A DNA stretch of 55,239 nt, taken from contig CADASK010000006.1 of NCBI GenBank assembly GCA_902790495.1, positions 1 through 55,239 of the forward strand, written 5' to 3'. Under the pieces are notes generated by a model. The model made no database searches. It saw nothing but the letters and a program-made list of their open reading frames with translations, and was not told the DNA's origin. Source of the DNA: an uncultured Eubacteriales bacterium. GTDB taxonomy: Bacteria; Bacillota; Clostridia; Christensenellales; Aristaeellaceae. This document shows positions 4,303-53,974 of the stretch, piece by piece. A program made the position numbers and the translations under genes. How positions within the stretch are numbered: the first letter of the stretch is position 1; each line of letters starts with the position of its first letter.

Positions 4303-4362
4303 GCGAAGGGTTGCAAGGGGCGATCGCAAAGCCCCTTGCCCGCGCCCGCAGGCGCGGAATCC
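4303..4362 (+). repeat. Intergenic double-hairpin element, copy 1 (short form)
   Basis: Begins GCGAAGGG and ends GCGCGGAATCC. Hairpin 1 is GCAAGGGGC / GCCCCTTGC around the loop GATCGCAAA; hairpin 2 is CCGCGCC / GGCGCGG around CGCA. It lies between minus-strand genes, so the element is antisense to the surrounding transcripts. The stem differs from other copies at both paired positions. Confidence 0.9.
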
Positions 4363-4392
4363 TATTCTAGCGATAAGCGAGATTAATACGCT

Positions 4393-4503
4393 TTAGCGCG
4401 CGAAGATCACAGCGCCGACGACCGAGAGCAGCATCAGCGCGGCCAGCGCCAGCGCCACCACGCGCGTGGCGGTCTTCTTGCGGTCCTGATGGGTCTGAGC
4501 CAT
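4393..4503 (-). CDS. 36-residue single-pass membrane protein
   Basis: Reading frame MAQTHQDRKKTATRVVALAL followed by AALMLLSVVGAVIFAR, 36 residues. It has a short charged N-terminus and one hydrophobic helix that runs almost to the C-terminus. The start has a near-perfect ribosome site (GGAGG, 9 bases before ATG), and the gene begins 5 bases after the CNNM-type gene ends, so the two are cotranscribed. The size and plan recall the small Prli42/DUF4044 membrane peptides of Bacillota, but I cannot claim homology from so short a sequence. Function unknown. Confidence 0.65.
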   Translation of the reverse strand: MAQTHQDRKKTATRVVALALAALMLLSVVGAVIFAR

Positions 4504-4508
4504 GGAAA

Positions 4509-5798
4509 TCAAGCCTCCTTGCTTTCATGCGCGGAGGGGATCTCCGCAGCTTCGTTGTCCTCGGGTTCGGCGCGGCTGACGCGCACCTTGGTCACTCGGC
4601 GGCGGTCCATGCCCACCACGGTCACCTGGTAGCCTTCCTCGGTGAAGGCGGCCCCCACGGTAGGGATGCGGCCCAGCATCTCGGAGGTCCAGCCGCCAAC
4701 GGTGTCCGCCTCGTAGTGGTCCTCCAGCTTCAGCCGCTCCAGCAGCTCCGCCAGGGGCAGGCTGCCGTCCACGACCATGGAGCCGTCCTCCAGGGCGACG
4801 ATGGCCTCGTTCACGTCGTCGTGTTCGTCGTAGATTTCGCCGACCAGCTCCTCCAGCACGTCCTCGATGGTGACGATGCCCTCCGTGCCGCCGAACTCGT
4901 CCAGCACGATCACCAGGTGGGTGCGCGTGGACTGGCACAGGTGCAGCAGCTTGGAGATCTTGAGGGTCGCCGGGGCGTAGACCGGGGGCACCATCACACG
5001 GCGCAGATCCCGCACGCCCTCGTGCAGGGCGGAGTAGAGATCCTTTTCGTGCAGCACGCCGACGATATGGTCGAGATCCTCATGGTAGACCGGCAGGCGG
5101 GAGTAGCCGCTCTCCCGGAAGAGGGTCTGGGCCTCCTCCATGGACAGGGTGTCCTCGATGGCGGTGACGTCCACCCGGGGCGTCATGATGTCCAGGGCGT
5201 CCTGGTCGATGAACTCGATGGCCGAGCGGATCAGGTCGCCCTCGCGGCTGTCCATGCCGCCCTCCTGCTGGGCCTCGTCCACCATCGTCATCAGCTCCGC
5301 CTCGATGGGCATCGCGTTCTCGCGAGGCTTGAAGATGCGCGCGAGCATCCGCCGCCATACCGAAAACAGGGCGTTGACGGGCGTGAGCACCGTGATCACG
5401 GCGTTCAGCGGGGCGGCGACGCCCATGGCCACCTGCTCGGCGAACTGCTTGGCAAGGGTCTTGGGGGAGATCTCGCCGAAGAGCAGGATCACCAGGGTCA
5501 TCACCACGGTGGAGACCGTGGGGCCCAGCGGGCCGACCCAGCCGGTGAAGAGCACGGTGGCGATGGAGGTGCCGGCGATGTTGACCAGGTTGTTGCCGAT
5601 CAGGATGCCGGTGATAAGCCGGTCATAATCGTCCGCCAGCGCCAGCGCGCGGGCAGCCTTGCGATCCCCGTCCTGGGCCAGGGTCTTCAGCCGCACCCGG
5701 TTGACGGCGGCGTAGGCCGTCTCCGAGGCGGAGAAGAAGGCGGACAGCGCCACACACAGCGCCAGTGAGATGACGAGGATCATAACAGAAGACCCCAT
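4509..5798 (-). CDS. CNNM/HlyC-CorC family membrane protein (hemolysin-type)
   Basis: 429 residues. The first about 190 form a DUF21/CNNM membrane domain (AFFSASETAYAAVNRVRL, ITGILIGNNLVNIAGT, LLFGEISPKTLAKQFA), followed by two CBS domains (MTPRVDVTAI and GVLHEKDLYSA; then THLVIVLDEFGGTEGIVT) and a C-terminal CorC/HlyC transporter-associated domain (VDGSLPLAELLERL). Relatives act in magnesium or cobalt efflux, with CBS domains sensing nucleotides; the old hemolysin name is not supported functionally. The ATG at 5798 gives the normal domain start and follows AAAGGAAAA; longer forms would overlap the upstream spacer. All expected domains are present and full length. Confidence 0.9.
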   Translation of the reverse strand: MGSSVMILVISLALCVALSAFFSASETAYAAVNRVRLKTLAQDGDRKAARALALADDYDRLITGILIGNNLVNIAGTSIATVLFTGWVGPLGPTVSTVVMTLVILLFGEISPKTLAKQFAEQVAMGVAAPLNAVITVLTPVNALFSVWRRMLARIFKPRENAMPIEAELMTMVDEAQQEGGMDSREGDLIRSAIEFIDQDALDIMTPRVDVTAIEDTLSMEEAQTLFRESGYSRLPVYHEDLDHIVGVLHEKDLYSALHEGVRDLRRVMVPPVYAPATLKISKLLHLCQSTRTHLVIVLDEFGGTEGIVTIEDVLEELVGEIYDEHDDVNEAIVALEDGSMVVDGSLPLAELLERLKLEDHYEADTVGGWTSEMLGRIPTVGAAFTEEGYQVTVVGMDRRRVTKVRVSRAEPEDNEAAEIPSAHESKEA

Positions 5799-5854
5799 GG
5801 TAAACCAGTTTTCCTTTCGTGATAACGCGCCGTGAAAGCGCGGGATATGGTCGG

Positions 5855-6316
5855 TCAGTCTGGACGGACGTGGGCTTTCTCCAGGGCCAGCAGCCGCGTC
5901 TTCACCTCGGGCCCCCAGGCGTAGCCGCTGACGAAGCCATGGGCCCCGATGACGCGGTGGCAGGGGATGAGGATGCACACGGGATTGCGGTGGATGGCCT
6001 GGCCCACGGCGCGGGCGGCCCCGGGCTTGCCGATGGCGCGGGCCACGTCGCCGTAGGTGACGGTGACGCCGTAGGGAATGGTGGCGATGGCTTGCCACAC
6101 GGCCTGCTGAAAGGGCGTCCCGCCGGGCCTGAGCGGCACGGTGAAGCGCCGAAGCGCGCCCGCAAAGTAGGCCTGCAGCTCCCGCTCACAGTCGCGGAGC
6201 ACGGGATCGTCCGGGGGCTGTGGCGGAGCGTCCGTCGGGTGCAGGGCGGTGACGGCCCCGTCCTCGGCGGTGACCAGCAGCTGGCCCACCGGCGAGGCAA
6301 AAACGGCGCGGCTCAG
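5855..6316 (-). CDS. ogt: Methylated-DNA--protein-cysteine methyltransferase
   Basis: Suicide DNA-repair enzyme that moves a methyl group from O6-methylguanine to its own cysteine. The acceptor motif ILIPCHRVIG is present, with the upstream helix-turn-helix segment TPFQQAVWQAIATIPYG and YGDVARAIGKP. The first ATG/GTG/TTG candidate is GTG at 6289, but family-like residues continue upstream of it (AVFASPVGQLLV). The only initiator-like codon that restores them is CTG at 6316, which overlaps the rsfS stop codon and has GGAG 11 bases before it. I therefore place the start at CTG, giving 153 residues; the conservative model is 5855-6289. Function is secure, the start is not. Confidence 0.85.
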   Translation of the reverse strand: MSRAVFASPVGQLLVTAEDGAVTALHPTDAPPQPPDDPVLRDCERELQAYFAGALRRFTVPLRPGGTPFQQAVWQAIATIPYGVTVTYGDVARAIGKPGAARAVGQAIHRNPVCILIPCHRVIGAHGFVSGYAWGPEVKTRLLALEKAHVRPD

Positions 6317-6675
6317 GCCGGATCACTCTCCAGATTCAGGGTGATGCGGTTCTTGCCGTCGTCCCAGAGGCGCTCCAGGTTGTAGTAGGCACGCTCATCC
6401 TGGTGGAAGATGTGCACCAGCACGGTGGCGTAGTCCAGCACGATCCAGCGGCCCTCGTTCAGGCCCTCGCTGCGGCGGAGGGTCAGGCCCTCCTTCGCCA
6501 TGAAGTCGTCCACCTCGTCCGCCATGGCCTTCACCTGGTTGGCGTTGCGGCCGGACGCGATGATCATGTAATCGCAGATGACGGTGAGGCCGCGCACGTC
6601 CAGCGCGACGATGTCCTGGGCTTTCTTATCGCTGAGCGCCGATGCCAGCTTCTGGATCAATTCCTGTTCCTGCAT
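6313..6675 (-). CDS. rsfS: Ribosome silencing factor RsfS
   Basis: 120 residues of the Iojap/RsfS family, which binds ribosomal protein uL14 and blocks joining of ribosomal subunits when nutrients are short. Family features are KAQDIVALDVRGLTVICDYM, IIASGRNANQVKAMADEV and the C-terminal GRWIVLDYATVLVHIFHQDE with YNLERLW. The start ATG at 6675 has GGAGG eight bases upstream. It lies just downstream of the nadD-yqeK fusion, which is the usual neighbourhood for this gene in Bacillota, and overlaps the ogt start. Confidence 0.95.
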   Translation of the reverse strand: MQEQELIQKLASALSDKKAQDIVALDVRGLTVICDYMIIASGRNANQVKAMADEVDDFMAKEGLTLRRSEGLNEGRWIVLDYATVLVHIFHQDERAYYNLERLWDDGKNRITLNLESDPA

Positions 6676-6740
6676 GGAACAACCTCCTTTGAGTGTAGGA
6701 TGGGAAAAAACGTATGCGTCAGCAGCCGGGGGAGGCTGCG

Positions 6741-7964
6741 TCATTCCTTGGCTTCGGCCTGGGAGCGGCCGCTGTTCTCGGGCAGGCTCCTGAGCCAGGC
6801 GACGGTGTCCAGCGTCTGGTGGTGGATGGGCTTGCCCTTGCCGCTGACATAGGCTATGGTGCCCTCCATGGAGGTCAGCACGGCGCGCTCCAGGGAGAGC
6901 GGGGCCATGATGCGCACCTTGTCCAGCAGCGGGTAGGAGGGCCTGCCCGGCTCGATCTTGTCGGCGAGGTAGACCACCAGATCCAGCCGGGACATGCCGA
7001 CCTTGCCGGTGGTGTGGCAGGCGATGGCGGCGAGGATCTCGGGATCCTCCACGCCGTAGACGTGCTCCGTCATCCACGCGCCGGCGACACTGTGCAGCAG
7101 CGCGCCGCTGGCCAGGGTTTCCTTGTCGCTGGTGAGGGCGTGGTCGAGGGCGATGCGCTGCATGTCCTTTAGGGGCAGGCACTTGGCGCAGTCGTGCAGC
7201 AAGCCCGCGATCTCCGCCTTGCGGTCGTCCACATGGTGGACACGGGCGAGGTTGCGGGCGATGAAGGCCACGCCAAGGGTGTGGGCGAAGCGCTTCACGG
7301 TCAGGTCCCGGAAGAGCTGCTCCATCCACTGCTCGGAGCGGGGATCCACCTCGGGCGTGCCGTAGAGGCCGCGGGCGTGGCAGTAGGCGCGGACAGCCGG
7401 GTTGATGAGGCCGGTGGGCGCGTCGCTCGCCAGGGCTTCCCGCAGCTCGGTGGAGGAGACGTCGACGGGCTCCATCGTCAGCGGACGGATCTTCGCGCCC
7501 AGCCCCTCCAGCAGCGCGCGCTCGGCGCGGACGGCGGCAGGCGCGTGGTCGGTGCGGCGCGGGCACACCAGGAAGGTGCACAGCCCCAGCACCTCGCGCC
7601 AGCGGTGCCAGTTCCGCAGCTCCATCAGCGTGTCGGTGCCGATGATATAGTACAGCTCCGCCTTGGGGTTTTCCCCGCGCAGGGCGGTCAGGGTGTCGAA
7701 GGTGTAGGTCGTTCCCTCGCGGTCCAGCTCCATACGGCAGGGCTCGAGGCCCTCGATGCCCTCGGCGGCGGCGCACACCATGCGCCAGCGATCCTCCTTC
7801 GGGGCGATGCCGGTCTTGTGCGGAGGGACGCTGTCCGGCAGCAGGAGCACCCGCGTCAGTGACGCGCTCGTGAGCGCGCACTGGGCCATGGCGATGTGTC
7901 CCTGGTGGATGGGGTTGAAGGTGCCTCCGAGGATACCGATGCGTTCCTTTGCCGCTTTTGCCAC
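6741..7964 (-). CDS. nadD: Fused nicotinate-nucleotide adenylyltransferase and YqeK-type HD hydrolase
   Basis: 407 residues with two enzymes in one chain. Residues about 8-200 are NadD, which makes deamido-NAD from nicotinate mononucleotide and ATP: nucleotidyltransferase motif GGTFNPIHQGHI and the closing VSSTELREAL. Residues about 215-390 are a YqeK-type HD domain, which cleaves diadenosine tetraphosphate: KRFAHTLGVAFIA, AGLLHDCAK, LLHSVAGAW and VYLADKIEPGRPS. In many Bacillota these are adjacent separate genes; here no stop or restart is visible between them. The start is GTG at 7964 after GAAAGGAAG. A promoter and a terminator of the preceding operon lie directly upstream. Confidence 0.92.
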   Translation of the reverse strand: MAKAAKERIGILGGTFNPIHQGHIAMAQCALTSASLTRVLLLPDSVPPHKTGIAPKEDRWRMVCAAAEGIEGLEPCRMELDREGTTYTFDTLTALRGENPKAELYYIIGTDTLMELRNWHRWREVLGLCTFLVCPRRTDHAPAAVRAERALLEGLGAKIRPLTMEPVDVSSTELREALASDAPTGLINPAVRAYCHARGLYGTPEVDPRSEQWMEQLFRDLTVKRFAHTLGVAFIARNLARVHHVDDRKAEIAGLLHDCAKCLPLKDMQRIALDHALTSDKETLASGALLHSVAGAWMTEHVYGVEDPEILAAIACHTTGKVGMSRLDLVVYLADKIEPGRPSYPLLDKVRIMAPLSLERAVLTSMEGTIAYVSGKGKPIHHQTLDTVAWLRSLPENSGRSQAEAKE

Positions 7965-7996
7965 AGGTTCGCTTCCTTTCTGGTCGTTACACCCTC

Positions 7997-8025
7997 ATTA
8001 TATACGATTTTTTCCCCGCGGAAAA
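7997..8025 (-). promoter_or_regulatory. Promoter of the nadD-yqeK operon
   Basis: A perfect TATAAT (-10, 7997-8002 read on the minus strand) lies about 33 bases before the GTG start. The -35 candidate 17 bases away is TTTTCC, which is weak. The position directly after the dnaX terminator supports a new transcription start. Confidence 0.6.
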
Positions 8026-8059
8026 GAGGAAAATTGGCGGGGAAGAGAAAAACGGCAGA

Positions 8060-8094
8060 AAAACAAGCGCCGGGACAGCGCATCCTGTCCCGGC
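8060..8094 (-). terminator. Rho-independent terminator after dnaX
   Basis: GCCGGGACAG and CTGTCCCGGC form a perfect 10-bp stem with a 6-nt loop, six bases past the dnaX stop, followed on the minus strand by GCTTGTTTTTC. Confidence 0.9.
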
Positions 8095-8099
8095 ACACG

Positions 8100-9671: not shown

Positions 9672-9707
9672 GGGCAGTGCTCCTTTCTGGCTGATGATTG
9701 TATTGCT

Positions 9708-12914: not shown

Positions 12915-12975
12915 GCGAAGGTTTGCAAAGGGCGATCGCAAAGCCCTTTGCCCGCGCCCGCAGGCGCGGAACCCC
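12915..12975 (+). repeat. Intergenic double-hairpin element, copy 2 (short form)
   Basis: Hairpin 1 is GCAAAGGGC / GCCCTTTGC with loop GATCGCAAA; hairpin 2 is CCGCGCC / GGCGCGG with loop CGCA; ends GGAACCCC. It sits upstream of the tcdA promoter and is antisense to the flanking genes. Confidence 0.9.
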
Positions 12976-13033
12976 TGCAGCGATACGACGGTCGGAAGCC
13001 CAGAATCGATTGCTGAGGAAAGAATCATCCAGC

Positions 13034-26530: not shown

Positions 26531-26590
26531 GCGAAGGTTTGCAAAGGGCGATCGCAAAGCCCTTTGCCCGCGCCCGCAGGCGCGGAACCC
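26531..26590 (+). repeat. Intergenic double-hairpin element, copy 3 (short form)
   Basis: Identical arms to copy 2 (GCAAAGGGC / GCCCTTTGC, loop GATCGCAAA; then CCGCGCC / GGCGCGG). It lies between malQ and glgP, probably inside one transcript and in the sense direction. Confidence 0.9.
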
Positions 26591-26645
26591 TGCCGCTGAG
26601 GAGTTCGCTCAAAGAGTTAAAACAATCAAGGAAAGCGTGATACCC

Positions 26646-31547: not shown

Positions 31548-31608
31548 GCGAAGGGGTGCAGGGGGCGATCGCAAAGCCCCCTGCCCGCGCCCGCAGGCGC
31601 GGAACCCC
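31548..31608 (+). repeat. Intergenic double-hairpin element, copy 4 (short form)
   Basis: Hairpin 1 is GCAGGGGGC / GCCCCCTGC with loop GATCGCAAA, a paired change relative to copies 2 and 3; hairpin 2 is unchanged. It begins 38 bases after the mannosidase stop. Confidence 0.9.
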
Positions 31609-31661
31609 TGCCGCCACAAAGAACCCTTCATCTGAAATGAGCATGAGCAACTAAGCACTCT

Positions 31662-34834: not shown

Positions 34835-34895
34835 GCGAAGGGGTGCAGGGGGCGACCGCAAAGCCCCCTGTCCGCGCCCGCAGGCGCGGAACCCC
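34835..34895 (+). repeat. Intergenic double-hairpin element, copy 5 (short form)
   Basis: Hairpin 1 is GCAGGGGGC / GCCCCCTGT region with loop GACCGCAAA, the only copy in which the loop differs (GACC for GATC). Hairpin 2 is standard. It is the first of two elements in the 321-bp gap between rnz and the ROK gene. Confidence 0.88.
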
Positions 34896-34910
34896 TGCTG
34901 CAGAGCATTT

Positions 34911-34954
34911 CGCCGCCTGCGGGCGGCGACCAGAGGCTTTCCGATCGCCTCTGG
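34911..34954 (+). other. Second type of double hairpin in the rnz-ROK gap
   Basis: CGCCGCC / GGCGGCG around TGCG (34911-34928), then CCAGAGGC / GCCTCTGG around TTTCCGATC (34930-34954). The plan, one stem with a 4-nt loop and one with a 9-nt loop containing CGATC, mirrors the repeat family in reverse order with other stem sequences. The rest of this 321-bp gap has no gene I can support. Confidence 0.6.
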
Positions 34955-35012
34955 ACTCTTCGGCCGCATGCGTTTAAGATGAACTGCCTACAGCCCATGC
35001 GAAATACGGCGC

Positions 35013-35072
35013 GCGAAGGGGTGCAGGGGGCGATCGCAAAGCCCCCTGCCCGCGCCCGCAGGCGCGGAACCC
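35013..35072 (+). repeat. Intergenic double-hairpin element, copy 6 (short form)
   Basis: Hairpin 1 is GCAGGGGGC / GCCCCCTGC with loop GATCGCAAA; hairpin 2 standard; ends GGAACCC. It lies 46 bases before the ROK kinase start. Confidence 0.9.
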
Positions 35073-35118
35073 TCTGCTGATACAGCACAATGACTATGAA
35101 GAATAAGGAGGAATCCCC

Positions 35119-38439: not shown

Positions 38440-38563
38440 GCGAAGGTTTGCAAAGGGCTCTGAGCGCCCGGAAAACAGTCCGGTGGACTGTTTTCAGCGA
38501 AGAGCGGGCGGCAGCCCCGGAACGATCGCAAAGCCCTTTGCCCGCGCCCGCAGGCGCGGAACC
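38440..38563 (+). repeat. Intergenic double-hairpin element, copy 7 (long form)
   Basis: Standard ends (GCGAAGGTTTGCAAAGGGC and CGATCGCAAAGCCCTTTGC, then CCGCGCCCGCAGGCGCGG), with an insert of about 65 bases between GGG and CGATCGC. The insert holds the 11-bp hairpin GAAAACAGTCC / GGACTGTTTTC (loop GGT) and outer arms CGCCCG / CGGGCG. It starts 18 bases after the Cas6e-like stop codon. Confidence 0.9.
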
Positions 38564-38598
38564 TTGGCTGCCGCGTAGGATTCGGAGGAAGAATCAAC

Positions 38599-40596: not shown

Positions 40597-40655
40597 GCGA
40601 AGGGGTGGAGGGGGCGATCGCAAAGCCCCCTCCCCGCGCCCGCAGGCGCGGGATC
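40597..40655 (+). repeat. Intergenic double-hairpin element, copy 8 (short form)
   Basis: Hairpin 1 is GGAGGGGGC / GCCCCCTCC with loop GATCGCAAA; hairpin 2 standard; ends GCGGGATC. It lies between the ATP-grasp and esterase genes and is antisense to them. Confidence 0.9.
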
Positions 40656-40657
40656 TC

Positions 40658-41413
40658 TCAGTCCCCTAACAAATGAGGAAGGTGATACTGACACTGCTTG
40701 AACCACCAGTCCCAGTCATGGGCGCTGTCACTGCCCCAGATATCAAACCACACGTTGATGCCCTTGGACGCGCAGATATCCCGCAGCTGGAAGGTGGTCT
40801 CCGGAATCTCCCAGGGGCCTGTGCCCACCACGATGATCCCCCGGTGCCGGTTGTACTCCTGGATGAAGGGGTGATCCGCGGGCATGCCGCCCAGGGAATC
40901 CACCGGGCTGTTCATGTAGACGAGATCGTCCATGTAGCCGTCGAAGCCGTAGGAGGCGGTGTAGATGCCGCTGAGGGCCAGCAGGCCGTCGAAGAGATCG
41001 GGACGGCGGAAGAAGAGGTTGGCCGCGTGGATCGCACCCAGGGAGGCCCCGTAAACCGCCACCCCGGGATAGCCCGTCCAGCCGTTGCGCTGGTTCACCA
41101 TATCCCGCGCGAAGGGCACAATCTCGTCGGTGATGAAGCGGATCCACTGCTCGTAGCGCTCGATGCGCCAGCGCGGATCGCCGCCCTTGTTGCTCCAGGT
41201 CTCCTGGTCGATGGTGTCGATGGAGAAGACCATGCACTGGCCGCTCTCGATCCACGGCGCCCAGCAGTCCGCCATGCCGAAGTTCTCAAAGTCATAAAAG
41301 TGCCCGTCCTGGCAGGGGATAAAGAGGATGGGCTTGCCCGCGTGGCCGTAGACCTTCAGCTCCATGTCGCGGCCCAGCGCCGGGCTGTACTCCTTGAAAT
41401 ACTGGGTTTCCAT
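40658..41413 (-). CDS. Esterase-fold alpha/beta hydrolase (first of two)
   Basis: 251 residues, cytoplasmic. It starts ETQYFKEYSPALGRDMELKV, has an oxyanion region KPILFIPCQDGHFYDFENFG and the nucleophile elbow VAVYGASLGAIHAANLFF; the histidine is probably in SAHDWDWWFKQ. This matches the putative esterase (esterase D-like) family. ATG at 41413 is the second of two in-frame starts and has AAGGAG eight bases before it; the first is too close. It lies 13 bases after the other esterase gene, so the pair is one transcript. Confidence 0.87.
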   Translation of the reverse strand: METQYFKEYSPALGRDMELKVYGHAGKPILFIPCQDGHFYDFENFGMADCWAPWIESGQCMVFSIDTIDQETWSNKGGDPRWRIERYEQWIRFITDEIVPFARDMVNQRNGWTGYPGVAVYGASLGAIHAANLFFRRPDLFDGLLALSGIYTASYGFDGYMDDLVYMNSPVDSLGGMPADHPFIQEYNRHRGIIVVGTGPWEIPETTFQLRDICASKGINVWFDIWGSDSAHDWDWWFKQCQYHLPHLLGD

Positions 41414-42347: not shown

Positions 42348-42406
42348 GCGAAGGGGTGGAGGGGGCGATCGCAAAGCCCCCTCCCCGCGCCCGCAGGCGC
42401 GGAATC
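42348..42406 (+). repeat. Intergenic double-hairpin element, copy 9 (short form)
   Basis: Same arms as copy 8 (GGAGGGGGC / GCCCCCTCC, loop GATCGCAAA) and a standard second hairpin, ending GGAATC. It lies in the 301-bp gap between two minus-strand operons; apart from this element, the promoter and the terminator I see nothing else there. Confidence 0.9.
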
Positions 42407-42449
42407 TTCTCTTAGAAGAAAAAAGAATATACATACAAAGGTCAGGCAT

Positions 42450-44704: not shown

Positions 44705-47362
44705 ATGAAAAAGCTGTGTGCCGCACTGGCCTGCCTGGCCCTTCTCGTCAGTCTTGCGCTCACCGGGGCGCAGGCGGCGCTGAGCTATCCCTTCACCACC
44801 GTCACCACGGACTCGGTGCGCATGCGCAGGAGCGCGTCCAGCACCGCCATCGTCCTCGAGACGCTCCCCCAGGGGGAGACCGTGACCGTGACCGGCGAGC
44901 GGGGCAGCTATTTTGCCGTGGAATACGCAGGCCGCAAGGGCTATATCCTCAAGCAATACCTCTCTGTCGAGAGCGATGTGATGGTGACCATCGCGCCGGC
45001 GGCCACCCCCACGGCCGGCGGCTATCCCTACAGCACCACCACCAACACCAAGGCGAGCCTGCTGGCGAAGGCCGACCGGAAATCCACCCGGCTGGCCACC
45101 ATCCCCAAGGGCGCGACGGTGGAGATGCTGAGCCTGGGCCGCACCTTCGCCCACCTGACCTACAAGGGCCAGGAGGGCTATGTCATCAAGGAGTACGTCA
45201 ACCTGCTGCCCATCGTGAAGGTCAAGGCCACGGAGGCCCCGGCGGTCGAGGTGGCCCCGGTGGATGACGCGAGCACCTACCAGGTGCTGCAGACCGGCAG
45301 CGCGGGCTCGGCGGTCATCGCCCTGCAGAACGCGCTGAAGGAGCTGGGCTTCCTCTCCGGCGCGGTGGACGGCCAGTTTGGCCGCGCGACCGAGCAGGCC
45401 GTCATCGCCTTCCAGAACCGCAACGAGTATCCGGCCACCGGCGTGGTGGACGCGAACCTCCAGGCCTTCCTCTACAGCGGATCGCCGAAGAACGCCGCGG
45501 GCTCCAAGACCAATGTCAAGACGCTCGCGCCCGTGGAGGGCGTGACCATCCGCCAGGGCAACACGGGCGAGCAGGTGGGCACCGTGCAGATCCGCCTGCG
45601 GGAGCTGGGCTACTATGCCGGCGAGATCACCATGGTGCACGACAGCGAGACGGTGAAGGCGGTCAAGGCCTTCCAGAAGGCCAACGGACTCACGGCGGAC
45701 GGCAAGGTCGGCGGCACCACCTGGTCGCTGCTGTTCAGCGGCAGCGCCTTCGCGGCGGGCGTCACGGCCACGCCTGTGCCCACGGCGGTGCCCACACCCG
45801 CTCCGACCATGGCCCGTCCAGGTACCACCGTGCGCCAGGGCGCCAAGGGCGCGGACGCGAAGATGGTGCAGAACCGCCTGAAGGCCCTCGGCTACTTCAC
45901 CAACCGGGTGGACGGCCTCTTCGGGGATCGCAGCGTGAAGGCCCTCAAGGCCTTCCAGGAGAACAACGGCCTGACGCCGGACGGCATCGCGGGCCCCGAC
46001 ACCTACGACGTGCTCTTCAGCGCGAACGCGCTGAAGGCCAACCAGAAGCCCACGCCGACGCCCGTGCCCACCGAGGTGCCCACGCCCACGCCCGAGCCCA
46101 CGCCGCTGACGGCGGAGAACGCCCTGGTCATCAAGCTGGGCGTGACGGGCGAAGAGGTGAGATCCCTGCAGCAGCGCCTGACCGCCCTGGGCTACTACCA
46201 GGCGACGGCGGACGGCACCTGCAAGGCGGACGACGTGGCGGCCATCCGGGCCTTCCAGAAGAAGAACGGCCTGCGGGTGGACGGCGCGGCGGGCTATGAA
46301 ACCCAGGTGCGCCTCTACTCCTCCTCCGCGGTGATGTATTCCGGCGCGGTGGCGGGCGGCACGGTGGACGACTTCAGCACCCTGAAGCTGGGCATGACCG
46401 GCGAGGCCGTGCGCGCCCTGCAGGAGCGGCTGATCGAGCTGAAATACCTTTTCGGCAAGGCGGACGGCGTCTACGGCACCGACACGGCCAACGCGGTCAT
46501 CGCCTTCCAGCGGGCCAACAACCTGAGCCGGGACGGCATCGCGGGCAGCACGACCCTCGCCAAGCTCTACGCGGGCAGCGCGAAGGCTGCCTCCTCCACG
46601 CCGACGGCGGCCCCGGCTACCGCCAGCGCCTCCGCGAGCCTCAAGCAGGGCGACAAGGGCTCGGACGTCACCAGCCTGCAGAAGCGGCTGATCGAGCTGG
46701 GCTATCTCTCCGGCAAGGCGGACGGCACCTTCGGCTCCCTCACGGCCAAGGCCCTCGTGGCCTTCCAGAAGGCGAACAAGCTCTCCAGCGACGGCATCGC
46801 CGGGGCCGCGACCCTGGCCGCCCTCAACAGCTCCTCCGCCGTGAACGCCAGCGGCAAGACCCAGGCCGCTTCGACCACGGCGTTGGCCTCGACCGCCACG
46901 GCCACGGCGACGGCTACCAAGCCCTCGGCCTCCTCCGTGCGCTACGCCAACTGGTACACCGAGGTGAAGGCCGCGGCGCGCAAGTACCAGTACGCCACGG
47001 TGTATGACTATGCCACGGGCATCAGCTGGCAGGTGCACATGTTCTCCTTCGGCGCGCACGCGGACGCGGAGCCGTTGACCGCCAACGACACGGCGAAGAT
47101 GATCCGCGCCTTCGGGGGCAAGACGACCTGGAATCCCAAGGGCGTGTGGGTGACGCTCTCCAACGGCGTGACCTACATGGCGACCATCCACGATATGCCC
47201 CATGAGACCTCCCACATCATGGACAACAACTTTGACGGACACCTGTGCATCCACTTCCCGCGCACGGCGGCGGAGGTGGCCTCCATCGGCCCCTACGCCA
47301 CCAGCCATCAGGCGGCTGTCGACGCCGGCTGGAGCTACACCCAGAAGCTGGCGGGAAACTAA
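44705..47362 (+). CDS. Secreted protein with two SH3b, six peptidoglycan-binding repeats and a C-terminal domain
   Basis: 885 residues. Signal peptide (KKLCAALACLALLVSLALTG, site after AQA); two SH3b domains (about 28-90, 105-170); then six PG_binding_1 repeats of about 65 residues, separated in places by P/T or A/T/S-rich linkers (TPVPTAVPTPAP, TPTPVPTEVPTPTPEPTP). Each repeat has the ALQxRLxxLGYxxGxxDGxFG...AFQxxNGLxxDGIAG form. The last about 150 residues (from SVRYANWYTEVKAAARKYQY) form a domain with MATIHDMPHETSHIMDNNFD and GHLCIHF; it recalls a clostridial cell-wall domain of the GHFCIHF type, but I know no enzyme name. It is likely a wall-bound hydrolase or scaffold. Confidence 0.88.
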   Translation: MKKLCAALACLALLVSLALTGAQAALSYPFTTVTTDSVRMRRSASSTAIVLETLPQGETVTVTGERGSYFAVEYAGRKGYILKQYLSVESDVMVTIAPAATPTAGGYPYSTTTNTKASLLAKADRKSTRLATIPKGATVEMLSLGRTFAHLTYKGQEGYVIKEYVNLLPIVKVKATEAPAVEVAPVDDASTYQVLQTGSAGSAVIALQNALKELGFLSGAVDGQFGRATEQAVIAFQNRNEYPATGVVDANLQAFLYSGSPKNAAGSKTNVKTLAPVEGVTIRQGNTGEQVGTVQIRLRELGYYAGEITMVHDSETVKAVKAFQKANGLTADGKVGGTTWSLLFSGSAFAAGVTATPVPTAVPTPAPTMARPGTTVRQGAKGADAKMVQNRLKALGYFTNRVDGLFGDRSVKALKAFQENNGLTPDGIAGPDTYDVLFSANALKANQKPTPTPVPTEVPTPTPEPTPLTAENALVIKLGVTGEEVRSLQQRLTALGYYQATADGTCKADDVAAIRAFQKKNGLRVDGAAGYETQVRLYSSSAVMYSGAVAGGTVDDFSTLKLGMTGEAVRALQERLIELKYLFGKADGVYGTDTANAVIAFQRANNLSRDGIAGSTTLAKLYAGSAKAASSTPTAAPATASASASLKQGDKGSDVTSLQKRLIELGYLSGKADGTFGSLTAKALVAFQKANKLSSDGIAGAATLAALNSSSAVNASGKTQAASTTALASTATATATATKPSASSVRYANWYTEVKAAARKYQYATVYDYATGISWQVHMFSFGAHADAEPLTANDTAKMIRAFGGKTTWNPKGVWVTLSNGVTYMATIHDMPHETSHIMDNNFDGHLCIHFPRTAAEVASIGPYATSHQAAVDAGWSYTQKLAGN

Positions 47363-47448: not shown

Positions 47449-47478
47449 TTGCGGGAAAGCGCCTGCTTATGGTATAAT
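47449..47478 (+). promoter_or_regulatory. Promoter of the NlpC/P60-like gene
   Basis: TTGCGG (47449-47454), an 18-bp spacer and a perfect TATAAT (47473-47478), 22 bases before the GTG start. Confidence 0.7.
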
Positions 47479-47500
47479 TCCACCGAGGGAGTGATGAAAC

Positions 47501-48379: not shown

Positions 48380-48381
48380 CG

Positions 48382-48927
48382 ATGGTAGAGAGAGTGGATC
48401 TGTATACCTATGACCGACAGCCCACGGGCGAAACCGCGCTGCGCGGGGAGAAGCTGCCGCCGGACCGCTACCGCATGGTGGTGCACGTGTGCCTCTTCGG
48501 GAGCGACGGGCGGATGCTGATCCAGCAGCGCTCGGCGTCCCACGCGCGCTGGACGGGCCTGTGGGACGTGACCATGGGCGGCGGCGCGCAGACGGGCGAC
48601 GACAGCCGCACCGCTGCCGCGCGGGAGCTGCTGGAGGAGATCGGCCTCCGGGCCGATCTCACGGGCCTGCCGCCGGCGCTGACCCTGCGTCCCGGCCAGG
48701 TAATCGACGACTTTTATATCCTGCGCGGGGATCCCGCGCCCGAGACCCTTCGGCTGCAGGCCGAGGAGGTGCAGGCGGTGCGCTGGGCGGACGCGGGGGA
48801 CATCCACCGGATGATCGACGCGGGGACGTTCATTCCCTACAAACATGAGCTGATCGACCTGCTCTTCGCCCTCCGGGACAGCCGGGGCTGCTGGACGCGC
48901 CCGGACAGGCGCGGGGCTTCTGGTTGA
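48382..48927 (+). CDS. Nudix hydrolase
   Basis: 181 residues, cytoplasmic. The Nudix box is GGGAQTGDDSRTAAARELLE followed by EIGL, close to GX5EX7REUXEEXGU but with Asp in place of the first Glu. The N-terminal DLYTYDRQPTGETALRGEKL and VCLFGSDGRMLIQQRSASHA resemble the YfcD/isopentenyl-diphosphate-isomerase-like branch. Substrates of that branch vary. The ATG at 48382 follows AGGGAG. It lies upstream of the replication genes and three bases after the NlpC-like gene, so it may be transcribed with both. Confidence 0.9.
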   Translation: MVERVDLYTYDRQPTGETALRGEKLPPDRYRMVVHVCLFGSDGRMLIQQRSASHARWTGLWDVTMGGGAQTGDDSRTAAARELLEEIGLRADLTGLPPALTLRPGQVIDDFYILRGDPAPETLRLQAEEVQAVRWADAGDIHRMIDAGTFIPYKHELIDLLFALRDSRGCWTRPDRRGASG

Positions 48928-48953
48928 GAACAAGGCATGAAAGGAAGTACGGC

Positions 48954-50450
48954 ATGAGCCTTTTCGGCTTTCAGAGCGGATCTGACCGGTGGGAGAGCAC
49001 ACCGGTCAGCAATCTTTTCATAGAGGAATACCTGCCGACCGCCAAGGGCGATCACGTCCGGGTCTACCTCTACGGGCTGATGCGGAGCCACTTTCCGGAT
49101 GAAAGCCTGAGCGTGGAGGACGTGGCGCTGGCCCTGGGTATGGAGAAGCAGGACGTGTTGGGCGCCTTCCGGCACTGGGAGTTCGTGGGACTGGTGGAGC
49201 GCGTGAGCGACAACCCGCCGGCTTACCGTTATCTGCATCCCGCCCAGCGGGAGCTGGAGGGTGGCCAGCGGGTTGACCCGAGGTGGCTGTCCTTTGTGGA
49301 GTCCCTGCACAGCCAGTTCGGCAACGAGCGCACCCTGCACTCCGGCGAGATCAGCACCGCGTGCGAGTGGGTGGAGGTCTACCACCTGCCCCAGGAGGTC
49401 GTGCTGCTGTTCATCCGCCACATGATCGACACCAAGGGCAAAAACTTCAGCTTCACGGCGGGCGACACCAACGAGCTGATCGGCGAGATGATCGACGCGC
49501 GGGTGAGCACCATCGACGAGGCGGCCCAGATCCTCGAGCGCGACAAGGCCGTGCGGGACGGGGCGAAGGCCCTGCTGCGCCGCCTGGGCGTCAGCCGCCG
49601 CCTGCCATCCCGCGATGAGCTGGAGCTGTACAGGAAGTGGCTGCGGGACTGGGGCTACACGTCCCAGGCCATCGAGGCCGCCTGCGCTGAGACGACCAAG
49701 ACGAACAGCCCGTCCTTCGGCTATATCGACACGATCCTGCGCCGCATGCTGGAGCAGAGCGGCCAGGCCACGGCGACGGAGCGGGAGACTCTGGAGCTGC
49801 AGGAGACCCGCGCGAGCCTCCGCAAACTGCTGGAGGTGCTGGGGCTGGACGTGGACACCTTCACCGAGCCCGGCACGCTGGCCTGGTACCGCTCGATGCT
49901 GGAGCTGTTCGACGACAGGGTGATCGAGCTGGCGGGCCGGTGGTGCGCGGAGGAGAACAAGCGCACCCTCGACCAGGTGCAGCTGGTACTGGAGCGCTGG
50001 CATGAGCGCGGCGCGCGCACCGCGGAGGACGTGGAGGCGCTGCTGAAGCCCGTGCGCGACCAGCAGCGGCTGCTCAAGACGCTGTGGCACCTCTGGGGCC
50101 GCAGGGAGCGGCTCGCGAAGCAGGACTACGAGCTGACCGCGAAGTGGCAGCAGACCTGGGGCTTCTCCGCCGATATGATCCTGGCCGTGGCCCCCTGGGC
50201 GACGGAGGCGGACAAGCCCATGCCCTATCTGGACGGCGTGCTGCAGAACCTGCACGACAAGGGCATCACGACCTATGAGGCCGCGAAGGCGGAGCACGAG
50301 AAGCGCCGGCAGGAGGGCGTCCGGCCCGCCGGGAAGGCGCGGGAGAATCCGGCCCTGCAGTACGACCAGCGGAGCTATGAGACCGATACGCGGGAAATGC
50401 CGGAATGGCTGAAGCAGAATCTGGCGGGGGAGGCGCACCATGCGCAGTGA
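48954..50450 (+). CDS. DnaD-domain replication initiation protein with several DnaD-like modules
   Basis: 498 residues. An N-terminal winged-helix part (about 1-110, FIEEYLPTAKGDHVRVYLYG, LALGMEKQDVLGAFRHWEFV) is followed by about three DnaD/DnaB C-terminal-type helical modules: ELELYRKWLRDWGYTSQAIE with FGYIDTILRRM; TLAWYRSMLELFDDRVIELA; and DYELTAKWQQTWGFSADMIL with MPYLDGVLQNLHDKGI. In Bacillota such proteins help load the replicative helicase. The gene overlaps the DnaC-like gene by 11 bases. The ATG at 48954 has AAAGGAAG. It is longer than typical DnaD, through the repeated modules. Confidence 0.87.
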   Translation: MSLFGFQSGSDRWESTPVSNLFIEEYLPTAKGDHVRVYLYGLMRSHFPDESLSVEDVALALGMEKQDVLGAFRHWEFVGLVERVSDNPPAYRYLHPAQRELEGGQRVDPRWLSFVESLHSQFGNERTLHSGEISTACEWVEVYHLPQEVVLLFIRHMIDTKGKNFSFTAGDTNELIGEMIDARVSTIDEAAQILERDKAVRDGAKALLRRLGVSRRLPSRDELELYRKWLRDWGYTSQAIEAACAETTKTNSPSFGYIDTILRRMLEQSGQATATERETLELQETRASLRKLLEVLGLDVDTFTEPGTLAWYRSMLELFDDRVIELAGRWCAEENKRTLDQVQLVLERWHERGARTAEDVEALLKPVRDQQRLLKTLWHLWGRRERLAKQDYELTAKWQQTWGFSADMILAVAPWATEADKPMPYLDGVLQNLHDKGITTYEAAKAEHEKRRQEGVRPAGKARENPALQYDQRSYETDTREMPEWLKQNLAGEAHHAQ

Positions 50451-51423
50451 GATCATGCAGCTGCTGCGGGACACTTATGCGGAGCAGCGTGAGAAGAATA
50501 CCCGGGAGGAATACCGCCGCCGCGCCGAGGCGGAGGAGAGGATTCACGGCCTCGGCGAGCTGCTGCAGGAGCGGCAGGAGCTGATCTACAGCGGCGTCCG
50601 CGGCATCCTGACGGGGGCGAAGGCCGAAAACCTGCCGGAACGGATGGAGAAGCTGAACGGCCGCATCGCCGCGATGCTGACGGCGGGCGGCTATCCGGCG
50701 ACCTGGCTCGACCCGGTCTATCGCTGCCCCATCTGCCGGGACACGGGCTACACCGGCGATACCGTGCGGGAGATGTGCGCCTGCATGCGCGCAGCCTACC
50801 ACAGCGAGGTGATGCGGCGGCTGGGCCTGGGCGATGACGCGGGCGTCTCCTTCGAGCGCTTCGATGAGAGTATCATCCCGGAGACGAAGCTGGAGGACTG
50901 GGGCATCACCCAGCGCGCGCTGTCCGTGCGCATCCGGGATCAGGCGCGGCAGTGGACGCAGGCCTGGCCGGACGCTCCGCGCATTGTGCTGATGTATGGC
51001 GAGAGCGGCCTGGGCAAGACCTACCTGATGCGCTGCATGGCGCGGGCGCTGACGGAGGGCGGCCACGAGGTGCTGCTGATCTCGGCCTATCAGCTGATGG
51101 ACGCGGCGCGCAAGGCGGTCTTCGGCGGGGAGACGGACGAGCTGACGGCCTGCATGGAGACGGAGTGCCTGCTCCTGGACGACCTCGGCAGCGAGCCGAT
51201 GATCCCCAACATCACCGTGGAACAGCTCTACAGCCTGATCAACGAACGCGGCCGCGCCGGGCGGGCCACCGTGGTGAGCACCAACCTGAACCCGGAGCAG
51301 CTGCGCAGCCGCTACGGCGAGCGCATCGTGTCCCGCCTGACGGACCGGTCGAACGCGCTGATCCTTGCCTTCCGGGGCGACGACCTGCGGCGGGTGGACG
51401 GAGCAAGGAGGGCGACGGTATGA
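50440..51423 (+). CDS. DnaC/DnaI-type helicase loader ATPase
   Basis: 327 residues. The N-terminal helicase-binding part has a zinc cluster with YRCPICRDTGYTGD and MCACMR, as in DnaI; the AAA+ part has Walker A IVLMYGESGLGKTYLMRCMA, Walker B TECLLLDDLGSEP and sensor 1 ATVVSTNLNPEQL with RYGERIVSRLTD. It loads the replicative helicase together with DnaD-type proteins. The ATG at 50440 has GGGGGAGG upstream and overlaps the DnaD gene. Its last codons overlap the ADP-ribosylglycohydrolase start. Confidence 0.93.
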   Translation: MRSEIMQLLRDTYAEQREKNTREEYRRRAEAEERIHGLGELLQERQELIYSGVRGILTGAKAENLPERMEKLNGRIAAMLTAGGYPATWLDPVYRCPICRDTGYTGDTVREMCACMRAAYHSEVMRRLGLGDDAGVSFERFDESIIPETKLEDWGITQRALSVRIRDQARQWTQAWPDAPRIVLMYGESGLGKTYLMRCMARALTEGGHEVLLISAYQLMDAARKAVFGGETDELTACMETECLLLDDLGSEPMIPNITVEQLYSLINERGRAGRATVVSTNLNPEQLRSRYGERIVSRLTDRSNALILAFRGDDLRRVDGARRATV

Positions 51424-52238
51424 TCGGGGCCATCATCGGCGACATGATCGGCGCGCCCTATGAGTTCGACCAGGGCGATAAGACCAAGGACTTTCCGCTG
51501 TGGGGCCGCCGGAGCCAGTTCACCGACGATTCGGTGATGAGCCTGGCCGTGGCGGAAGCGCTGCTGGAGGCCGGCGACTGCGAGGAGAGCGAGTTCAAGC
51601 GGGTGCTGATCTATTCCATGCGGCACTGGGGGCGGAATTATCCCTACGCGGGGTACGGCGCCATGTTCATTCACTGGCTGGCCGATCGAGATCCCCAGCC
51701 CTACTGGAGCTACGGCAACGGCTCTGCCATGCGGGTTTCGCCGGCGGGCTGGTTCTACCCGACCATCGAGCGGACCCGTGAGGCGGCGCGCTGGACGGCC
51801 GAGGTGACGCACAACCACCCCGAGGGCGTCAAGGGCGCGGAGGCGGTGGCGAGCGCGATCTTCCTCTCCCGCAAGGGCGAAACCAAAGAGGATGTGAAGG
51901 CCTATATCGAGCGCGAGTTTGGCTACAGCCTCAGCCGTACATGCGATGAAATCCGCCCGGCCTACCGCCATGTGGAGAGCTGCCAGGAGACGGTGCCGGA
52001 GGCGGTCACGGCCTGGCTGGAGGGCGCGGACTTTGAGGACGTGATCCGCACGGCGGTCTCCCTGGGCGGCGACTGCGACACCCTCACCTGCATCGCCGGC
52101 GGCATGGCTGAGGCGTCCTACGGCGTGCCGGAGGCGATCCGCACTGAGGCGGAAAAACGGCTCACGCACGAGCTGCGCGACGTGCTCCTCCGCTTCGAGA
52201 GGAAGGCGGCGGAACGGATCGAAGGGGGATTGGCATGA
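51420..52238 (+). CDS. ADP-ribosylglycohydrolase (DraG/ARH family)
   Basis: 272 residues. The magnesium-binding pattern of the family is complete: IIGDMIGAPYEF at the start, QFTDDSVMSLAVAEALLE, and SLGGDCDTLTCIAGGMAEA near the end. Such enzymes remove ADP-ribose from proteins, nucleic acids or small molecules. The ATG at 51420 overlaps the helicase loader stop (ATGA) and has AGGAGG eight bases before it, so it is made with the replication genes. No ADP-ribosyltransferase is in the window. The target is unknown. Confidence 0.93.
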   Translation: MIGAIIGDMIGAPYEFDQGDKTKDFPLWGRRSQFTDDSVMSLAVAEALLEAGDCEESEFKRVLIYSMRHWGRNYPYAGYGAMFIHWLADRDPQPYWSYGNGSAMRVSPAGWFYPTIERTREAARWTAEVTHNHPEGVKGAEAVASAIFLSRKGETKEDVKAYIEREFGYSLSRTCDEIRPAYRHVESCQETVPEAVTAWLEGADFEDVIRTAVSLGGDCDTLTCIAGGMAEASYGVPEAIRTEAEKRLTHELRDVLLRFERKAAERIEGGLA

Positions 52239-52576
52239 CCATCCTGATGTACGCAAGCAAAAAGAACTTCGACACCCAGAAGGCGGAGCGCTTCTTCAAG
52301 GAGCGCCGTGTGCCCCTGCAGGTGGTGGACATGAAGAAGCACAAGCTGGGGGAGCGCGAACTGCAGAACATCGCCAAGGGGAAGCTCTCGGAGCTGATCG
52401 ACCGGGAGGACAAGAAGGTGAAGGAACACCCGGCCTGCTATTACGACCGGGAGAGCATGCTGCTGCCCGCTGTGCTGGAAAACCCCTGGCTGCTGCGAAG
52501 CCCGATCCTGCGCTGCGGCGCCAGGGTCACGGTGGGCTACTGCCCCGAAATCTGGGAGGCCTGGCTGAAGGAGTGA
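52235..52576 (+). CDS. ArsC/YffB-like thioredoxin-fold protein without the active cysteine
   Basis: 113 residues, coupled to the previous gene (ATGA). ASKKNFDTQKAERFFKER, VDMKKHKLGERELQNIA and LENPWLLRSPILR are the conserved regions of the ArsC/Spx/YffB family. Position 8, which carries the arsenate-reducing cysteine in ArsC, is within YASKKN and is not Cys, as in many clostridial relatives. It is therefore unlikely to reduce arsenate; a binding or regulatory role is possible. It is the last gene of the Nudix-DnaD-DnaC-DraG unit. Confidence 0.88.
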   Translation: MTILMYASKKNFDTQKAERFFKERRVPLQVVDMKKHKLGERELQNIAKGKLSELIDREDKKVKEHPACYYDRESMLLPAVLENPWLLRSPILRCGARVTVGYCPEIWEAWLKE

Positions 52577-52610
52577 CCGGGGCCGCCGCGCGTTTTTCCC
52601 TTTCGGAACC

Positions 52611-52639
52611 TTGCATGAACCGCGCGCATGTGGTATAAT
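52611..52639 (+). promoter_or_regulatory. Promoter of the iron-type ABC importer operon
   Basis: TTGCAT (52611-52616), a 17-bp spacer and a perfect TATAAT (52634-52639), 51 bases before the ATG. I see no Fur-type palindrome. Confidence 0.8.
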
Positions 52640-52690
52640 CGATGTGTTCAATGGGTAGCGATTCAACCGAAAAAACGGAGGTAGGAACGT

Positions 52691-53770
52691 ATGAAAAAGC
52701 TGTTGGCCGCTGTGCTGGCGCTGACCATGGCCCTTTCGATGGCGACGGGCGCCCTCGCCGTGAACGAGGACGTGGAGGGCGAGCTGGTGATTTATTCCTC
52801 GATGTACCAGAATGTGCTCGCCATGATGGACGAGGCCATCAAGGCGGAGTTCCCCAACCTGGTGCCCGGCAATGACGGAAGCTTCTTCTTCTACGGCGGC
52901 ACCAGCTCGCTGATCACCAAGATCTACGGCGAGATGGAGACGGGCACCCTGGGCTGCGACATGATGCTGGTGGCTGAGCCCGCCTTCTCCCTGGAGCTGA
53001 AGGATGCCGGCTATCTGGAGCCCGTGGAGATCGAGAATCCTGACCAGCTGCTGCGCTTCCCCTATGACGAGGAGGGCTACTGGTACCCCGTGCGCGTGTG
53101 CAACATGGTGCTGGCCTACAACCCCGAGAAGACCGAGGAGTGGGCCGCCAAGGGCGTGACCATCCCCAAGACCTTCAAGGACTTCGCCACCGATCCGGCT
53201 CTCAAGGGCGTCATCTCCATGGGCAACCCGCTGACCAGCGGCACCACCTACGCCGCCGTGGCCTCCCTGACCCAGGACAATCATTACGGCAAGGAGTTCC
53301 TGAACGGCCTGGCCGCCAACGAGGTCATGATCGAGTCCGGCTCCACCGCCCTGACCAAGCTGCAGACCGGCGAGTGCGCCGCCATCATGATCCTGGAGGA
53401 GTCCGTGCTGAGCCGGCTGGAGGAAGCCGAGCTGGCGGGCACGCCCATCACCAACATCGCCTGCATCTACCCGGAGGACGGCGTGGTGCTGATCCCCTCC
53501 ACGGTGATGACGGTGGCCGAGAACCACAGCAAGAACGTGAACCTCGAGGCCTGCGAGGCGGTGGAAAAGTGGCTGCTGAGCGAGGAAGGCCAGAAAATGA
53601 TCCTGAAGGGCTACATGCACAGCACCTTCGCCGGCATGAAGGACATCCCCTACGGCTCCATCGATACCGACACGCTGATCGAGAAGGATCTGGGCGTGGA
53701 CTGGGAGAACGCGTATCACAATCGCGAGGCGATCAACACCGCCTGGACCGAGATTGTGACCACCAAGTAA
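52691..53770 (+). CDS. ABC importer solute-binding protein, ferric iron (Fbp/AfuA) type
   Basis: 359 residues with a signal peptide (KKLLAAVLALTMALSMATGA, cut after ALA). The mature part starts EGELVIYSSMYQNVLAMMDE and contains FFFYGGTSSLITKIYGEMET, VRVCNMVLAYNPEKTEEW, PKTFKDFATDPALKGVISMG and EAVEKWLLSEEGQKMIL, which fit the class of binding proteins for Fe3+, putrescine-like or phosphonate ligands, closest to the iron group. There is no lipobox cysteine. GGAGG lies upstream of the ATG. The permease gene follows after 264 bases that contain a terminator and a long-form element. Confidence 0.88.
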   Translation: MKKLLAAVLALTMALSMATGALAVNEDVEGELVIYSSMYQNVLAMMDEAIKAEFPNLVPGNDGSFFFYGGTSSLITKIYGEMETGTLGCDMMLVAEPAFSLELKDAGYLEPVEIENPDQLLRFPYDEEGYWYPVRVCNMVLAYNPEKTEEWAAKGVTIPKTFKDFATDPALKGVISMGNPLTSGTTYAAVASLTQDNHYGKEFLNGLAANEVMIESGSTALTKLQTGECAAIMILEESVLSRLEEAELAGTPITNIACIYPEDGVVLIPSTVMTVAENHSKNVNLEACEAVEKWLLSEEGQKMILKGYMHSTFAGMKDIPYGSIDTDTLIEKDLGVDWENAYHNREAINTAWTEIVTTK

Positions 53771-53788
53771 ACCCTTCCGTGAAGAAAC

Positions 53789-53817
53789 GGGGGAAGCTGT
53801 CACAGGCTTCCCCCTTT
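53789..53817 (+). terminator. Probable leaky terminator after the binding-protein gene
   Basis: GGGGGAAGC and GCTTCCCCC form a 9-bp stem with an 8-nt loop followed by TTTCC. The short T-tract would allow read-through to the permease. Confidence 0.65.
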
Positions 53818-53848
53818 CCGTACCCAACCAAGCCTTAAAAAGAGGCGG

Positions 53849-53974
53849 GCGAAGGGGTGGAGGGGGCTCGGAGCGCCCGGAAAACGCCATGTTATGGCGT
53901 TTTCAGCGGAGAGCGGGCGGCAGCCCCGGACCGATCGCAAAGCCCCCCCCCGCGCCCGCAGGCGCGGAACCCCC
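53849..53974 (+). repeat. Intergenic double-hairpin element, copy 10 (long form)
   Basis: Standard ends with the same kind of insert as copy 7. The inner hairpin is GAAAACGCCAT / ATGGCGTTTTC (11 bp, loop GTT), different in sequence from copy 7 but fully paired. The outer stem has a run of nine C on one side, with one unpaired position. Hairpin 2 is standard. Confidence 0.9.

Follow-up and report, generated by a model that had tools for sequence, protein, structure and literature searches.

The window analysed here, the 55,239 nucleotides of contig CADASK010000006.1 from an uncultured Eubacteriales bacterium, carries repeats belonging to a family of several hundred small intergenic elements in a rumen-type Clostridia genome. 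In the core of each element a 5' tetranucleotide and the loop of the adjoining hairpin (stem 1) are predicted to pair, forming an H-type pseudoknot in which both interleaved helices covary. Our best reading, held with about as much confidence as doubt, is that the element is a non-autonomous miniature mobile DNA, similar to repetitive extragenic palindromic (REP) sequences, which would be recognised at replication forks, once its DNA is single-stranded and folded. An earlier note on the window had described ten of the copies, each with two hairpins, from the letters of the DNA.

Size and distribution of the family

The covariance model R1, built on 43 short copies, detected 301 copies in 1,533,086 bp of the 2.47-Mb genome (G000), about one per 5.1 kb. 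The first 813 kb gave at least 150 matches at E up to 1, of which the first 140 were kept (E up to 0.012), and the further 720 kb gave 161 matches at E up to 0.012. The pattern CGATCGCAAAGCC occurs 163 + 169 times in the genome and 0 + 0 times when read backwards, which is far above chance. Such a search of the genome and its relatives had been proposed in the earlier note, and the relatives, whose lack of the family would have been a ground for doubt, do carry it: matches were obtained in 11 of 12 genomes of the genus, with 1 to at least 150 copies each (at least 150 in G000, G001 and G002; 78, 65, 27, 7, 4, 3, 2, 1 and 0 in the others). Repeats may break assemblies, so copy numbers are possibly underestimated.

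Within the wider taxonomic family, carriers amounted to 22 of 120 genomes and 11 of 50 genera, scoring 44 candidates per genome under stricter filters. Outside this taxonomic family many copies have no second hairpin (hairpin 2) and consist of the pseudoknot core only, sometimes in direct tandem. A pattern scan of named genomes returned at least 109 stretches, those listed being mostly uncultured Clostridia and Ruminococcus metagenome-assembled genomes, many of them sampled from rumen or gut; the scan pattern was also fitted by some Alphaproteobacteria and further records, and these off-group matches were kept in the sets used below for the first linker-stem test and for the viral stop-codon distances. 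No match to the element was found in a plasmid collection.

Direct tandem cores without hairpin 2 are seen in other Clostridia at L185:4091-4329, L133:7399-7510, L110:3310-3447 and L140:1714-1788, and also in L111 and L159; we take them to resemble the antitoxin repeats of type III toxin-antitoxin systems, where pseudoknots in tandem lie next to a ToxN-like gene. Some contigs of G001 start at or within copies (L072:1-57, L085:13-73, L086:1-25).

Covariation in the pseudoknot core

The core is laid out as a 5' GCGA or CCGA, a linker mostly of 4-7 nt, a stem mostly of 7-10 bp and a loop containing TCGC or TCGG, followed by AAA. That GCGA could pair with TCGC had been suggested from the window, and the covariation of tetranucleotide and loop strongly supports it. 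Among 475 parsed copies, 411 were matched (168 GCGA/TCGC and 243 CCGA/TCGG), 52 differed from a match by one T-to-C change in the loop, 2 were swapped and 10 were of other kinds. These 475 combine 132 parsed out of 205 rows (the other 73 being mostly long or degraded), 77 distinct out of 100 rows, and 266 more; about six rows (L152, L174, L188) recur between the sets. The relation holds in long copies, where the two strands lie about 110 nt apart: out of 89, 64 were matched, 13 had the C variant, none was swapped and 12 had an unclear or other 5' strand. In an alignment of 41 distinct rows, the first pseudoknot pair is G-C in 20, C-G in 19, U-G in 1 and other in 1, and the fourth is A-U in 30 and unpaired in 11. 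The covariation score on these rows was reached by none of 500 shuffles; since the sequences were chosen by patterns fixing much of the core, the evidence comes from the free positions alone.

Two further pairings were tried and rejected. An outer stem between the flanks showed no covariation within copies (10.62 versus 10.53 when shuffled), nor did a pairing of the linker with the 3' tail proposed by minimum-energy folding (3.31 versus 3.37).

Stem 1, hairpin 2 and the linker code

Stem 1 is almost free of mismatches in short copies. In the 327 short copies that were parsed, the first seven pairs comprise 2289 cells, of which 2269 were Watson-Crick and 20 were not, with 3 G-T/G-U versus 9 A-C among the latter; the parser demanded at least 6 of 7 pairs and excluded 128 of 455 rows, long copies among them. 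In the 41-row alignment (A7), 5 of 9 stem pairs change on both sides, no cell is changed on one side only and 13 of 369 cells are unpaired. Long copies frequently have mosaic arms, and 41 of 89 show at least seven gapless Watson-Crick pairs; because the arms are so often mosaic, the case for strict selection on the whole stem is weakened there. Hairpin 2, which the earlier note held to be invariant, is so in the ten copies that the note had described and exists in several versions across the genome.

At L156:3539-3614 a short hairpin is inserted in the 3' arm of stem 1 rather than in the loop, and many matches of 73-78 nt in G002 (L351:16292-16369 was noted alongside) may be the same variant.

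The linker follows stem 1 in a way that Watson-Crick pairing does not describe. In antiparallel purine-motif triplexes the third strand reads the duplex by the code G*G-C and T/A*A-T, and in an H-type pseudoknot on the forward strand the first loop occupies the major groove and runs antiparallel to the purine arm. Reading the linker in this antiparallel sense, we found that an arm G is faced by G, and an arm A by T or A. The first set comprised those 31 of 50 unique sequences whose linker length is n-3, and the code was obeyed by 73 of its 86 mirror pairs (34 of 36 where the arm has A, 39 of 44 where it has G), while shuffling gave a mean of 54.5 and a maximum of 65 in 5000 trials. A second set of 31 new sequences, mostly from viral contigs, gave 82 of 107 (39 of 43 where the arm has A, 43 of 47 where it has G), with a shuffled mean of 54.7 and a maximum of 73 in 3000; relatedness among sequences can inflate tests of this kind. 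In several stem types, single A positions shift together with a single linker T or A. The code thus matches purine-motif triplex pairing, and from this agreement we infer that a triplex may form.

Orientation and gene context

Position statistics cover 290 of the 301 copies of G000, 150 of the 161 from the further 720 kb being included, with genes called by a home-made dicodon method and with GC skew taken at third codon positions and averaged over both gene strands. The forward sequence lies on the G-rich strand for 199 of 290 copies, as compared with 707 of 1293 genes, and the per-contig fraction tracks the skew across the 25 contigs that have four or more copies (Spearman 0.77). A similar tendency was found in G002, with 78 of 125 copies on the G-rich strand (Spearman 0.67, p 0.012, 13 segments), and there the genes lean the opposite way (146 of 361).

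The copies are intergenic, only 6 of 290 overlapping a called gene by at least 30 bp. Among gaps that measure 60 bp or more, the element occupies 190 of 522 tandem ones (36%) and 41 of 102 convergent ones (40%), compared with 11 of 121 divergent ones (9%), so that divergent gaps are avoided. Where adjacent copies lie within 150 bp of each other, 18 of 38 pairs are inverted doublets, + then -. The right end of the element reads AA-Y-C-Y-Y in 252 parsed copies and does not amount to a T-tract, in line with the earlier view that the copies are not ordinary terminators.

Turnover between species

We compared G000 with its relative G010, which is about 75-90% identical in the window region. Within 34 pairs of orthologous gaps, the element was present in G000 only in 17, in G010 only in 1, in both in 2 and in neither in 14, counting gaps between separate alignments and leaving uncounted the copies inside a single alignment. 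For the gaps occupied in G000 only, the median excess in length is 113 bp. All six occupied gaps of the window that could be compared have no copy in G010. At one locus a long copy is present in G010 and absent in G000, beside a short copy common to both; at one orthologous place the two genomes have copies of different stem subtype, both with an unusual CACA loop. A flank-based search for empty sites was noisy and usable for single examples alone.

Other repeats lie near some copies. A second hairpin repeat, with a long stem and a core like GGGGGACGCTTTCC...GGAAAGCGTCCCC or CTGGGGGACACG..., is found in L010 and L016 near 1501, and at L089:1050-1500 / L083:5880-6330 it is identical between two species despite diverged neighbouring sequence. 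A further intergenic repeat (core AGCTCTCCCAGAGGGAGAGCC) adjoins copies at L041:8440-8500 and L103:4150-4600.

Occurrence in tailed-phage contigs

The element also occurs in some tailed-phage contigs. In the viral collections it is carried by 6 unannotated 'Bacteriophage sp.' records and 48 IMG/VR stretches. Ten proteins from six such contigs were compared with PHROGs, and 7 match families that serve the phage head or tail, among them terminase, portal, major head, tape measure and baseplate proteins. A Microvirus origin, guessed from small contigs, was dropped after these matches showed tailed-phage genes.

Candidate mobilisers and comparison with known systems

Neither PF01797 (Y1 transposase) nor PF00078 (reverse transcriptase) was found in G000, G001, G002, G004 and G010, the five genomes of the genus with the highest copy numbers, G000 being 94.5% complete and G002 only 66%; both were rejected as mobilisers within the genus. 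PF01797 is present in G007, G008 and G009, with 3, 27 and 0 copies of the element, and PF00078 in G007 and G011, with 3 and 1. PF01797 is found in some but not all carriers from other genera; G068, G074 and G081 (39, 15 and 17 copies), for example, have one Y1 match each. The gene most often flanked by copies was rejected as a candidate, as its sequence looks like that of a GTPase of the Obg type. Ten other flanked genes were likewise discarded, 8 having ordinary domains and 2 no domain.

Among the closest known systems are the GTAG-tagged REPs and REPINs (REP doublets forming hairpins) with their REP-associated tyrosine transposase (RAYT, also TnpA_REP), which share with our element short palindromes, hundreds of copies, intergenic location, frequent inverted pairs and patchy distribution between species. 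In contrast to GTAG/GTGG-tagged REPs, the tag is here GCGA or CCGA and covaries with the loop, and a linker-stem code exists. Because the five highest-copy genomes of the genus have no PF01797 protein, the element is not a RAYT system as defined, though similar in many respects.

CGTC-tagged REPs, reported from Proteobacteria, Chlorobi, Bacteroidetes, Spirochaetes and Thermotogae, are also tetranucleotide-tagged palindromes lacking a dedicated transposase, with a tag described as unpaired (PMC3733652); our tag differs from CGTC. In the rare class 3 of HuH elements, repeats with 5' CnGA feet and atypical structures reach up to about 600 copies, mainly in Planctomycetes, Acidobacteria and Proteobacteria (PMC6006769). 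Atypical structure and very high copy number are common to both and the CCGA copies fit CnGA, whereas the GCGA copies do not; the description available for that class includes no pseudoknot, and the PF01797 search of G000 was negative. The HuH class with CnGA feet would be the closest lead for an enzyme.

Searching 4227 Rfam families gave no match at or above gathering score in the window, and outside it sub-threshold matches alone. An HDV-like (hepatitis delta virus) ribozyme, CPEB3 (RF00622), likewise has a GC-rich stem followed by a hairpin; it was rejected because its matches, to two GCAGGGGGC copies, scored 23.0 and 22.2 bits, below the gathering score of 35, and it had no match in four other loci, among which L221 and L168 carry other stem subtypes. 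The four core words of the element did not occur in the literature searched, and no description of the element was found there.

Copies in the window

The window holds 11 copies (Table 1). The ten of about 60 bp described in the earlier note are real, all on the + strand and, as it had claimed, between genes, the copy at 40597 overlapping a gene end by 1 base; two of them are in fact long forms, and an inverted eleventh copy exists beside them. Thus 8 copies are short (about 58 bp), 2 are long and 1 is inverted. In 8 of the ten, both arms of stem 1 adjoin the 9-nt loop, and the complementarity that had been claimed for all is perfect in 7 of these 8, the copy at 34835 ending with one G-T pair. 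In the two long copies the 5' arm lies about 70 nt further upstream, with some 66 nt containing a strong hairpin between arm and loop; the arms match 9/9 in the 38.4-kb copy. The loop was correctly described as constant in nine of the ten (GATCGCAAA), and in the eleventh copy, with 5' CCGA, it is GATCGGAAA. The stretch of the inverted pair matches other places of the genome over about 140 nt. At 45545-46828, inside the open reading frame 44705-47362, the window also contains several internal repeats spaced by about 250-300 bp.

Table 1. Copies of the element in the 55,239-nt window
Feature	Positions	Strand	Remarks
Short copy	4303..4364	+	stem GCAAGGGGC, linker AGGGTT
Short copy	12915..12976	+	stem GCAAAGGGC, linker AGGTTT
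Short copy	26531..26592	+	stem GCAAAGGGC; orthologous gap of relative G010 without copy
Short copy	31548..31609	+	stem GCAGGGGGC; G010 gap without copy
Short copy	34835..34896	+	loop GACCGCAAA; left half of an inverted pair recurring elsewhere in the genome; G010 gap without copy
Eleventh copy	34904..34963	-	CCGA/GATCGG subtype; right half of the inverted pair
Short copy	35013..35074	+	stem GCAGGGGGC; G010 gap without copy
Long copy	38440..38566	+	~66-nt hairpin insert between 5' arm and loop; arms GCAAAGGGC/GCCCTTTGC match; G010 gap without copy
Short copy	40597..40658	+	stem GGAGGGGGC; G010 gap without copy
Short copy	42348..42409	+	stem GGAGGGGGC; G010 gap without copy
Long copy	53849..53971	+	degraded 3' arm, 6 bp left

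Interpretation

The element is of a known kind, high-copy REP-like miniature DNA. Within what was tested, the new features are its pseudoknot core, the code that relates linker to stem, the lack of the expected transposase in high-copy genomes and the occurrence in tailed-phage contigs. The earlier note had inferred selection for structure and loop sequence. Stem 1 is indeed maintained in short copies and the loop is constrained, but a process at the DNA level explains the data at least as well as one acting on RNA, because copy number and position vary between species, orientation tracks GC skew in two genomes and stem G-T/G-U pairs are few.

Mobile DNA is the reading that starts from high copy number, variation between species, intergenic location, a stem 1 conserved in short copies, two covariations and an orientation following the skew, its mechanism on single-stranded DNA being the best-supported guess. 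A non-autonomous repeat of about 58 bp (short) or 125 bp (long) would fold while single-stranded; provided that the leading strand is the G-rich one, this would probably happen on the lagging-strand template. The linker would act as the third strand of a purine-motif triplex, occupying the stem's major groove. A putative enzyme would recognise this fold and copy the element to new places, and insertions would survive mainly where promoters are spared. In its fullest version, this scheme has selection conserving a pseudoknot of single-stranded DNA with a purine-motif triplex inside the same molecule, copying at forks by some enzyme other than a known Y1 transposase or a reverse transcriptase, and tailed phages sharing the family; we consider this version doubtful as a whole.

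Several points weigh against the mobile-DNA reading. No mobilising gene was found, either by searching the five highest-copy genomes for PF01797 and PF00078 or among the flanked genes compared. That the leading strand is the G-rich one is an assumption, and replication alone does not explain the gene-sense bias of G000, where 149 of 223 tandem copies are in sense, an effect persisting within contigs (odds ratio 2.46, z 2.7). Turnover, with 17 of 20 places different, is overstated because shared copies inside single alignments went uncounted, and at least two places have them (L043/L082 and L089/L083). The G000/G010 comparisons revealed neither exact insertion boundaries nor target duplications; intergenic sequence is too diverged there to resolve exact insertion points. 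In 40 cells the loop has C in place of T, its most frequent variant, which gives an A.C mismatch when read on the forward strand, whose geometry fits the triplex, but a G.T/G.U wobble when read on the reverse. Finally, copies in viral-collection contigs lie near stop codons, mostly in reverse orientation: of 66, 20 have the stop codon on the reverse side only, 4 on the forward side only, 26 on both and 16 on neither, the median distance on the reverse side being 9 nt.

These last two observations speak for an RNA element at mRNA 3' ends, in which a reverse-strand hairpin with a downstream UCGC/UCGG pseudoknot, placed just after the stop codon, would end or protect mRNAs. The avoidance of divergent gaps also favours it, as does the rarity of T-tract terminators in tandem gaps with the element (28/178 versus 87/324 without, p 0.005). 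In convergent gaps, however, terminators are not replaced (22/37 with the element versus 28/57 without), the forward orientation is the commoner one relative to genes in G000, and G002 has no preference (39 sense, 42 antisense). Most compared copies are not shared with G010, in a comparison biased towards difference, the window has no Rfam family at threshold, and we know of no counterpart to the linker-stem relation on the reverse (RNA) strand. The evidence on the strand is thus divided, the linker code and loop geometry favouring the forward strand, the loop variant and viral positions the reverse; on balance we hold the mRNA 3'-end explanation to be unlikely, although it is the strongest of the alternatives. 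An ordinary REP/RAYT system, its transposase gene missing from the assembly, too diverged or lost, would account for copy number, intergenic location and inverted pairs, and the Y1 proteins of some carriers in other genera agree with it, as do the CnGA feet and copy numbers of HuH class 3 (for CCGA copies, not GCGA) and the lagging-strand link reported for HuH elements (PMC6006769, PMC5371812). It seems to us quite improbable given the distribution of PF01797 within the genus (G002 being incomplete), a 5' tag that is not GTAG and the mainly different phyla of class 3. Least probable, and already strained, is the proposal that palindromes are kept by templated hairpin repair and recombination between copies, without selection for the fold: the absence of one-sided changes in stem 1, the mosaic arms of long copies and the orthologous pair differing in stem subtype fit it, but the covariations of 5' tetranucleotide with loop and of linker with stem are left unexplained.

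If the linker code reflects a real triplex, the mobile element favoured here would be a natural, highly replicated system in which a DNA triple helix shows itself through sequence covariation. As the family counts hundreds of copies and several subtypes, and is plainly present in some species and absent from others, it offers a test of who moves REP-like repeats that have no RAYT.

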